From NCBI GenBank assembly GCA_009839745.1, contig VXPE01000017.1, positions 1-43,243 on the forward strand: a stretch of DNA of 43,243 bases, given 5' to 3'. Below, piece after piece: positions 26,259 to 41,806 of the stretch (within the stretch, counting starts at the first letter, position 1; every line of letters begins with the position of its first letter). The position numbers and the translations under genes are program-made. The notes below the pieces were generated by a model, which was not told the origin of the DNA, ran no database searches, and saw nothing but the letters and a program-made list of their open reading frames with translations. This DNA comes from Candidatus Poribacteria bacterium. Lineage in GTDB: Bacteria > Poribacteria > WGA-4E > WGA-3G.

Positions 26259-26328
26259 AAACAAGCGTTACGCCGTAGCAAGAGGATGAAAGGAAATTCG
26301 CGGTAACGTGGGGGGACCTCAAAATACA

Positions 26329-27336
26329 ATGAGCGATCAAAAGCCGTTAGCAATAGGCATTATTGGTGCTGGCAATATGGGAAGACATCATCAGGGGGCG
26401 ATAACCAATTATGGTGCGCGGGTTGTCGCCGTCCATGATGTAAGACTTGAGGCGGCGCGCGAACTCACAGCGCATGCCGAATCAGCACTCGCAACTACGG
26501 CGTTGGATGCCTTCTTTGATGTGGACATGGACGGCGTGGTTATCACGACACCCCCTCCTATCCGACTTGAACCGATCCAAATGGCATGCGACCGCGGTAT
26601 CCCTGTGATGGTTGAAAAACCGCCCGCCTTGAACATGGCTGAAGGCAGGAAATGCCTCGCATGCATCGAGAAGGCGGATGTCATTGCTGCTGTTGGGTTC
26701 CAACTCCGCTATCATCCACTCTATGAACGGCTGAAAGCGTTGATCGCTTCGGAATCGGTCCACCTCGTGCGGACGGTGTGCACCGTTAATTATTATCTGA
26801 GTTTCCGGATGTCGCCTTGGTTTTTACAATATGATATAAGCGGGGGTCCCTTGCCGGAACAGGCGGTGCACGTGTTGGATTGTGCGCGTTTTGTGATGGG
26901 AAATCCGAAGCCTGTGCAAGCACATGCCCTCGCTGCTAAAAACATGGCGTTGGAACGAACCGAATTCGATGCCGAAAATGCCATTCAGATGACCTATCAA
27001 CTGGACAATGGCGTTTTCGGAACACACATGAATCACTGTGGCACCGAAGGCTTTAGTTTTGAGGTTGAAGTCGTCGGGCCGCATTTGCGATTACAAGCGA
27101 AGATGACGGATAACGTTATCTGTGGATACCTTAACGGTGAGATCGTCAACGAATCAGTGACTTCCGAAAACAGTCTGGGTTTAGACAAATCCGGAGCGTG
27201 GTTGCGTGCCATTGAAACAGGCGATAGAACGCTCATTCGTTCGCCATTCGCGGATGCAATTGAGACCCTTGCCCTGATTGATGCCGCGGTCCAAAGTCGG
27301 GGCACCGGCAGATTTATTAATGTGAAGGACCTGTAA
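26329..27336 (+). CDS. Gfo/Idh/MocA family NAD(P)-dependent oxidoreductase
   Basis: Sugar or inositol type dehydrogenase, 335 aa. Seen: Rossmann loop G-I-I-G-A-G-N-M-G-R-H-H, VVAVHDV, the V-I-T-T-P-P segment, cofactor/catalytic V-E-K-P-P-A (the family E-K-P), and a C-terminal beta-sheet domain with VGFQLRYHP and the Q-A-V-H-V-L-D-C active-site helix. Substrate not known. ATG 26329 is preferred; an upstream GTG at 26308 is in frame and cannot be excluded. It is followed by cassette C and the selenoprotein candidate, on the same strand. Confidence 0.9.
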   Translation: MSDQKPLAIGIIGAGNMGRHHQGAITNYGARVVAVHDVRLEAARELTAHAESALATTALDAFFDVDMDGVVITTPPPIRLEPIQMACDRGIPVMVEKPPALNMAEGRKCLACIEKADVIAAVGFQLRYHPLYERLKALIASESVHLVRTVCTVNYYLSFRMSPWFLQYDISGGPLPEQAVHVLDCARFVMGNPKPVQAHALAAKNMALERTEFDAENAIQMTYQLDNGVFGTHMNHCGTEGFSFEVEVVGPHLRLQAKMTDNVICGYLNGEIVNESVTSENSLGLDKSGAWLRAIETGDRTLIRSPFADAIETLALIDAAVQSRGTGRFINVKDL

Positions 27337-27339
27337 TTG

Positions 27340-27479
27340 TAGCCTGCAACAATCCGCAGAAATACCCCGCTGAATGCCACACGCGCATTCAGCGTTGATT
27401 CACAAAAACACGCAGGCGGGACTACGGGAAGGAACACTATCTACCCAAGGTCCTAACCGAACCGCAAGGAATAATTAAA
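27340..27479 (+). repeat. Leader cassette copy C, upstream of the ArsC-type selenoprotein gene
   Basis: Arms GCCTGC (27342-27347) and GCAGGC (27412-27417) enclose a long loop with a nested ten-base palindrome CGCTGAATGC/GCATTCAGCG (27368-27377, 27385-27394). Then come CTAACCGAACCGCAAGG and AATAATTAAA directly before ATG 27480. The Shine-Dalgarno AAGG is ten bases from the ATG. The cassette starts three bases after the Gfo/Idh stop. Confidence 0.75.
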
Positions 27480-27824
27480 ATGATAGATTGGATTTATTCT
27501 CGAAGTAGCTGAAACTCGTGTAAAAAGGTTCAAGAGTTTCTTGACGAACACGGATTACAACCAGAAAGTCGGACGGATGCCCGAAAAGAGCGAATGGATG
27601 CAACAGCGGTTTGGGATTTAATGGGCAGCGCGGCGCAAATCGTTGTTGCGAAAGGGCAGCGCGTGGAAACCTTTGTGCCGACCGCAGACACGCAGGAATC
27701 AATCCTGAAAGTGGTAATGGGACGGAGCGGTAGCCTGCGAGCGCCTACAGTGCGAAGTGGAGATAGTTTCTTTGTCGGATTTAACAACGCGCTCTATGCG
27801 CAGATAATGCCACCTGCGCGCTGA
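27480..27824 (+). CDS. ArsC-family selenoprotein candidate (in-frame TGA as Sec in U-x-x-C)
   Basis: Read through one TGA (27510-27512), this frame gives 114 residues, the normal ArsC/Spx length. Seen: MIDWIYSRSS, then Sec11, then N-S-C-K-K-V-Q-E-F-L-D-E-H-G-L, which lines up with the C-T-S-C-R-K motif of Spx-like thioredoxin-fold proteins, so TGA stands at the first redox Cys. The end LRAPTVRSGDSFFVGFN matches the conserved ArsC/Spx C-terminal strand region. A stem-loop begins just after the TGA (see SECIS entry). I recall an ArsC-family (seleno)protein group of this kind in databases. Start: ATG 27480, ten bases after AAGG of cassette C. If Sec machinery is absent, it would be a nonsense pseudogene. 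Role: thiol/selenol redox reductase, substrate unknown. Confidence 0.78.
27513..27553 (+). promoter_or_regulatory. Bacterial SECIS-like stem-loop after the TGA
   Basis: Lower stem CGTGT (27517-27521) with ACACG (27548-27552); upper stem TCAAG (27530-27534) with CTTGA (27540-27544); apical loop AGTTT (27535-27539). The loop starts 23 bases after the TGA and has G in its second position. This matches the known bacterial SECIS spacing (about 16-37) and the early-loop G rule. Hand folding only. Confidence 0.6.
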
Positions 27825-27881
27825 GACGTGTGGAGGTAAGGTCGTTTCGCCCTTGCAGAGGCATGTTTCTTTTCATGATTG

Positions 27882-27969
27882 TAGCCTGCAACAACGGAGC
27901 AGGCGGATATACGGAGAAGTCCTTCAAATGTTGAACCGACCTGACCGAACCGCAAGGAAAATTAAAAAA
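27882..27969 (+). repeat. Leader cassette copy D, upstream of the epimerase gene
   Basis: Arms GCCTGC (27884-27889) and GCAGGC (27899-27904) with loop AACAACGGA, then GGATATACGG, a spacer, CTGACCGAA and CCGCAAGGAAAATTAAAA (from 27950). It runs directly into the conserved N-terminal codons of the epimerase. Confidence 0.75.
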
Positions 27970-28719
27970 ATTTTGATTACGGGTGCGAATGGCTATCTGG
28001 CACAATTTGTTATTGATCGGTTGTGTGGTGCGTATGAACTCACGCTCACTGATATTGTTGAATTGGATCGGACGGTTTCAGGCACAACTTTTATCAAGGC
28101 AGATGTGACAAATGCTGCCGAAATTGAGGCGGTGTGTGCAGATCAAGATGCTGTCGTCCATCTCGTTGCACTGGTGCGGGGACGGTCTGATAAACCCGCC
28201 TCGCTGTTTGCGGATGTTATGGTGAAAGGGACCTGGAACGTCGCGGAAGCCTGTGTAAAGCAGGGTGTCAAAAAGTTGGTTAACATCTCAAGTATTTCGG
28301 CGTGTCCTCCTGCGCCAAGCGCAAGGTTACCTTACGAGGTGGACGATGCCTTCCAGTTCGGTCCGGGAGATCTTTACTACGCGTTGGCGAAGTACCTCGG
28401 CGAGCGGATCGGTGCGGCGTATCATCAAGCATACGGGTTAGACGTGATCCATGTCCGCCCGGGAGTGATAGAGGGAGACGGACAGAATCCGGGACCTGCA
28501 GCTCCTGAAGTTGTGACGGATCCTTGGTTCGTTTACGTGGACCCCAGGGATGTCGCACAGTGTGTCGCACGCGCCATTGAAACAGAGACGGTGAAGTATG
28601 GCGCGTATAATGCCGTCGCGGGTCGTGCGGATTCCCGTTTCGCGTGGAGACAGGCAGCGGACGATTTAGGATATTCACCAGCTCACAATTGGCCGGAGAT
28701 CCCTGATGGAGATACGTAA
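27928..28719 (+). CDS. NAD-dependent epimerase/dehydratase family protein
   Basis: Extended SDR, 263 aa from the ATG used here. Seen: N-terminal K-K-I-L-I-T-G-A-N-G-Y-L (G-x-x-G-x-x-G type nucleotide loop), acidic residue in LTDIVELD, KADVTNAAEI, VVHLVA, ISSISACPP, catalytic Y-Y-A-L-A-K, and VIHVRPGVIEG. It acts on a nucleotide sugar or related substrate, unknown. Start is uncertain: ATG 27928 (GGAG 11 bases upstream) would translate cassette D in frame as L-N-R-P-D-R-T-A-R-K; an ATT at 27970 or TTG at 27973 sits where the cassette normally places the start, just before LITGANGYL. Confidence 0.85.
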   Translation: MLNRPDRTARKIKKILITGANGYLAQFVIDRLCGAYELTLTDIVELDRTVSGTTFIKADVTNAAEIEAVCADQDAVVHLVALVRGRSDKPASLFADVMVKGTWNVAEACVKQGVKKLVNISSISACPPAPSARLPYEVDDAFQFGPGDLYYALAKYLGERIGAAYHQAYGLDVIHVRPGVIEGDGQNPGPAAPEVVTDPWFVYVDPRDVAQCVARAIETETVKYGAYNAVAGRADSRFAWRQAADDLGYSPAHNWPEIPDGDT

Positions 28720-41697: not shown

Positions 41698-41806
41698 TTT
41701 TAATTTTCCTTGCGGATTTTTAATTTTTCCTTGCGGTTCGGTCAGGGCATCTGAACTTTCGATGTTCCTTTCCGTTTATCCGCCCTCCATTTCATTACGG
41801 GCTACA
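41698..41806 (-). repeat. Leader cassette copy E, upstream of murG
   Basis: Minus-strand order: arms GCCC (41799-41802) and GGGC (41782-41785) with loop GTAATGAAATGGA, then GGATAAACGG, a spacer, CTGACCGAA and two tandem blocks: CCGCAAGGAAAAATTAAA (from 41736) and CCGCAAGGAAAATTAAAA (from 41715). The second ends just before ATA 41697. Confidence 0.75.

Follow-up and report, generated by a model that had tools for sequence, protein, structure and literature searches.

The stretch of DNA analysed here (43,243 nt, hereafter the window) carries on its plus strand, at positions 27480-27824, an ATG-initiated frame of 114 codons that closes with TGA (27822-27824) and whose sole internal stop is a second TGA at codon 11 (27510-27512). 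Read through, the product begins MIDWIYSRSS-TGA-NSCKK, which places the internal TGA, a candidate selenocysteine (Sec, U) codon, at the first position of a U-x-x-C motif (U-N-S-C) whose putative resolving cysteine, Cys14 (codon 27519-27521), is invariant in the family alignment; read by the standard code, the same frame gives a 10-residue peptide. A Shine-Dalgarno-like AAGGAA (27466-27471) lies 8 nt before the ATG and is replaced in other genera by TGGAGG-type sites. Both the single-TGA frame with its Sec-N-S-C motif and the well-formed start had been proposed in a preliminary description of this DNA, and both were confirmed on the sequence. The gene is flanked on the same strand by a Gfo/Idh/MocA-type dehydrogenase upstream (26308-27336) and an NAD-dependent epimerase/dehydratase-type ORF downstream (27853-28719), the latter probably with its true start inside the listed frame.

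Between the dehydrogenase and the ATG lies one copy (27339-27479, plus strand) of a genus-specific interspersed repeat, which we term the leader element (GTAGCCTGCAACAA ... ACCGAACCGCAAGGAATAATTAAA) and which supplies the Shine-Dalgarno sequence of the gene. Copies measure roughly 90-140 nt, with a 5'-proximal GCCTGC...GCAGGC-type hairpin and a Shine-Dalgarno-like 3' end, and are sometimes arranged in tandem with a period of about 116-118 nt; further copies in the window occur at 27881-27970 and, on the minus strand, at 41727-41742. The 3' end reads ACCGAACCGCAAGGAA-AATTAAAA-ATG and, judging by its sequence, can act as a ribosome-binding site. Its core, ACCGAACCGCAAGGAA, is present in 138 copies in the source genome (reversed control, 0) and in 35/36 genomes of the genus, compared with 0/24 genomes of other genera, and the two copies flanking the selenoprotein gene had no match in Rfam. 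An ATG positioned 3-19 nt downstream and opening either at least 60 codons or the selenoprotein frame was found for 24/47 distinct copies versus 4/47 random positions, in a sample biased by the fact that more than half of the 24 are the selenoprotein locus itself. The leader element is possibly mobile and may in this way rewire the starts of translation.

Translated with the TGA as Cys, the read-through protein scored 121.6 bits against the NCBIfam profile NF041106 (ArsC_rel_Se_1; cut-off 85) and covered it completely (1-107/107). Across Candidatus Poribacteria, a phylum known from marine sponges, we found the gene in 70/84 genomes, with exactly one in-frame TGA in 70/70 carriers and with neither a Cys form nor any other stop at codon 11 among these 70 genomes; it was absent from the families outside the carrier order (f5-f10). 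In the set of relatives, source genome included, 48/60 genomes carried the family, each with one in-frame TGA, and codon 11, the column at which an alignment of homologues had been suggested beforehand, was TGA at 91/91 loci (71/71 distinct genes) and never a random stop. Retention of an in-frame UGA at a Cys/Sec position across homologues, a recognised mark of bacterial selenoproteins, is thus what the family displays. Plasmids and viral contigs searched for relatives of the selenoprotein yielded none.

Codons after the TGA showed a pS of 0.71 and a pN of 0.20, indicating purifying selection, with a median dN/dS of 0.11 over codons 24-106. A pseudogene, cut short to its first 10 residues by a nonsense mutation, would agree with the short peptide that arises only under the standard code, but the identical TGA in 70/70 carriers and the strong purifying selection 3' of it exclude a pseudogene or a sequencing error. 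The same two observations uphold the earlier view that a random nonsense mutation was unlikely here, and, with complete Sec machinery also present in the genome, we consider the pseudogene explanation negligible.

That machinery comprises selA (600 bits), selB (346 bits), selD (360 bits) and, on contig 22, a tRNA-Sec (78.1 bits; called by ARAGORN as tRNA-SeC with anticodon tca), with selB located about 100 nt upstream of the tRNA gene. The joint presence of SelA, SelB, SelD and tRNA-Sec in one genome is a second recognised mark of bacterial selenoproteins, and it is the outcome that the preliminary description had proposed to look for. Searches for tRNA-Sec and SelB also gave weak signals in controls, namely genomes of bacteria that are not known to use Sec, but the matches in the source genome far exceed the curated cut-offs. 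In a few carrier genomes (e.g. G030 and G024) selA or an above-cut-off tRNA-Sec was not detected, which we read, as yet unproven, as assembly gaps. The selD gene of the source genome (G000:C117:9834-10757; L103) has one in-frame TGA of its own, as do the above-cut-off SelD matches of relatives, suggesting that SelD is probably a selenoprotein too. One relative (G054) has two equal-scoring tRNA-Sec genes (C41:31543-31633 and C76:20147-20237, 78.8 bits each), which may represent either a true duplication or redundancy of the assembly or bin. Two genomes of the same class, both of family f6 (G051 and G055), lack selA, have no above-cut-off match for selB or selD and give weak tRNA-Sec scores, and f6 may have lost the use of Sec.

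A short hairpin follows the in-frame TGA within the coding sequence, with the core U-CAAGA-GUU-UCUUG-A at 27530-27544 (plus strand). Its stem pairs 27531-27535 with 27539-27543, extended by U27530-A27544, and its apical loop, GUU (27536-27538), lies 23 nt after the TGA. In a synonymous-change test over 70 aligned genes and 100 degenerate codon columns, synonymous change was absent in only 5 columns, namely codons 18-22 (CAA GAG TTT CTT GAC), which spell exactly the CAAGA-GUU-UCUUG hairpin; in the degenerate columns outside this block the commonest codon averaged 0.65 of its amino acid. The pS for codons 17-22 was 0.135. Pairs 22-34, 23-33, 24-32 and 25-31 were constant in 71 genes, and pair 26-30 was A-U in 58, C-G in 3 and A.A in 10 of them, the last of these widening the loop to a pentaloop whose second base is G. 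Genes with C-G belong to two genera (L068 and L093 in g1, L073 in g22), where Ala-Val replaces Glu19-Phe20 or Glu19-Val20, so that the RNA pair was kept while two amino acids of the protein changed. The lower pair 20-37 varies between U-A, C-G and U-G, and in the source clade the lower three stem pairs are lost and a single U-A extends the stem instead, while the loop, 23 nt downstream of the UGA, is invariably G(U/G)U (GUU or GGU). Stem positions were paired in 96.0% of alignment cells, with 12 cells changed on both sides and 0/500 shuffles as high, a count that we weight below the invariant codon block and the double change seen in two genera because related sequences may exceed shuffles without any structure.

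Thermodynamic folding of single sequences was uninformative, and the case for the hairpin therefore rests on comparison. Folded alone, the 56-nt stretch reached -8.9 kcal/mol with a z of -0.09 relative to shuffles, that is, no extra stability, and the 22-nt hairpin piece reached -4.2 kcal/mol, as against the published threshold for a bacterial SECIS (bSECIS) of at most -7.5 kcal/mol. In many relatives the minimum-energy fold is a competing helix that pairs the UGA itself with a hairpin strand; we rejected this candidate, whose pairs are disrupted more frequently and show weaker covariation than those of the hairpin. The bSECIS model specifies a loop of 3-9 nt, a stem of 4-16 bp, G in the first two loop positions and a distance of 16-37 nt from the UGA (PMC13188914), and the 3-nt GUU loop, the 5-6 bp upper stem and the 23-nt spacing all lie within these ranges. 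A covariance model search of the source genome (E <= 1) returned the selenoprotein hairpin as its sole match. Of the stem-loop originally sketched for this site, the 23-nt distance and the fit to a bacterial SECIS model in loop and spacing held; the G is at loop position 2, as then stated, if the closing A-U is counted open and at position 1 otherwise, and fold energy lends no support. Taken together, the comparative evidence points to a SECIS that would help to decode the UGA.

Decoding of the TGA as Trp, or its read-through under an altered code or by a suppressor, would equally result in an open frame, although nothing specific favours it. TGA also serves as the terminator of the selenoprotein gene itself, here and in several relatives, codon 11 is the position of a redox Cys rather than of a Trp, tRNA-Sec, SelA, SelB and SelD are all present, and the hairpin is under synonymous constraint, all of which make such decoding highly improbable. 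Machinery, conserved TGA and hairpin each came out in favour of the selenoprotein reading first put forward for this locus, and we conclude from these sequence comparisons, with a probability of roughly 0.96, that its product is a true bacterial selenoprotein of 114 residues belonging to the NF041106 family.

We next consider the protein. Its AlphaFold model (pLDDT 92.6, pTM 0.85) shows a beta-alpha-beta unit, a helix and beta hairpin (53-65), and then an alpha-beta-beta-alpha unit, and its best structural matches in the PDB are Spx and ArsC-related proteins, with TM of about 0.5-0.58. The N-terminal beta-alpha-beta with its CxxC is shared with glutaredoxin and NrdH-redoxin (Pfam PF00462; 22.5 bits, just under the cut-off of 22.9), from which the model departs in that strand 2 is followed by an additional helix and a beta hairpin before the next long helix begins. 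Invariant residues include W4, R8, U11, S13, C14, K16, Q18, K36, W45, G59, R82, L86-R87-A88-P89-T90 and G100, among others. On this model, the product would be a small thioredoxin-fold protein with a glutaredoxin-like core and an insertion, nearest to Spx and ArsC-related proteins.

The family name, a weak match to Pfam ArsC (PF03960; 16.4 bits, below the cut-off of 24) and the ArsC-related folds among the structural matches would all agree with a canonical seleno-arsenate reductase, and ArsC (PF03960, TIGR00014) does share the remote fold and the N-terminal motif region. However, E. coli ArsC could not be aligned at a significant level (hhalign probability 0.1%), and residues aligned with Spx arginines are not kept as Arg: Ala88 precedes Pro89 where Spx has Arg, and Lys58 stands opposite another Spx Arg, both positions being judged through the Spx alignment rather than against ArsC directly. 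No arsenic gene occurs among the identified neighbours, and we consider it improbable that the protein is an arsenate reductase of the canonical type. The source genome itself contains no canonical ArsC/Spx protein detectable by PF03960 at E <= 0.01. Because E. coli ArsC could not be significantly aligned and the closest proteins of solved structure are Spx and ArsC-related ones, the label 'ArsC' is, as far as sequence can tell, loose for this NF041106 member. Of the ArsC/Spx pattern noted at the outset, the proximity to Spx and ArsC-related proteins stands, whereas an arsenate reductase identity does not follow.

Alternatively, the protein could be a redox switch of the Spx type, binding RNA polymerase and sensing through U-x-x-C. 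The protein resembles Spx (PDB 1z3e, 3gfk, 7f75) in its thioredoxin-like core and, by profile alignment, in the position of the C-x-x-C, and Spx provides its best solved relatives both by fold and by profile (E about 6e-4). It differs in having Sec for the first Cys, a chain shorter by about 17 residues and a probably different insertion, with the helix and beta hairpin of residues 53-65 of the model standing where Spx has the helical insertion that contacts RNA polymerase alpha; taken as a whole, the two structures overlap poorly (TM about 0.55, rmsd about 7). We regard an Spx-like regulator as unlikely.

The preferred reading is that of a selenoprotein acting as a thiol oxidoreductase. On the comparative evidence, SelB with Sec-tRNA(Sec) would decode the UGA at 27510-27512, aided by the hairpin inside the coding sequence. 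Sec11-x-x-Cys14 would most likely form a thiol/selenol redox centre, in which, as motif and fold suggest, the Sec selenolate would attack an oxidised or disulfide substrate, Cys14 would resolve the resulting selenenyl-sulfide, and re-reduction would fall to a system based on thioredoxin or a low-molecular-weight thiol. We consider this general Sec-x-x-Cys mechanism likely.

The genomic context is constant in family f1. Both neighbours were present at 18/18 f1 loci examined, and the trio of dehydrogenase, selenoprotein and epimerase lies on one strand at 26308-28719 and at L040-L050, L089 and L098-L102, in family f1 only, an arrangement that suggests co-transcription. In families f2, f3 and f4 the neighbours differ from those in f1, and the context therefore does not settle the function of the family as a whole. 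In two f3 genomes the selenoprotein gene sits directly downstream of selA (L069 and L070; G040:C268 and G037:C22). We tentatively suggest a distinct seleno-oxidoreductase, neither arsenate reductase nor Spx regulator, that has a dedicated substrate and has retained Sec across one order of Poribacteria; the place of its gene in f1 may point to a role linked to carbohydrate metabolism.

An ArsC-type selenoprotein group is known, as the preliminary description had stated. The NF041106-type family appears as 'arsenate reductase-like protein, UxxC' in two reviews (PMC13188914, PMC9312934), which credit the Global Ocean Sampling (GOS) survey, and has been on selenoprotein lists since that survey in 2008 (PMC2398784). 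The survey described an 'Arsenate reductase 2' with UxxC, represented by 42 Sec and 238 Cys sequences (PMC2398784), which, from motif and citation, is probably the NF041106 family. Our protein agrees with NF041106 in its score above the curated cut-off over the whole profile, in the UxxC motif and in Sec; unlike the family as listed, it was found within Poribacteria in the Sec form only (70/70). NF041106 as a selenoprotein family was thus known before, and what is new is the universal Sec form among Poribacteria carriers, a comparatively defined SECIS and the doubt cast on the name 'ArsC'. The open-access literature yielded no paper on Poribacteria and selenoproteins, and selenocysteine was found at most as a single mention beside Poribacteria; from this search, the phylum seems little studied for selenium use.

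These results indicate that selenium use spans most of the Poribacteria phylum, where standard annotation would cut a Sec-dependent redox protein to 10 residues. With no Cys forms in the lineage, the family lends itself well to asking which function Sec serves that is out of reach for Cys.
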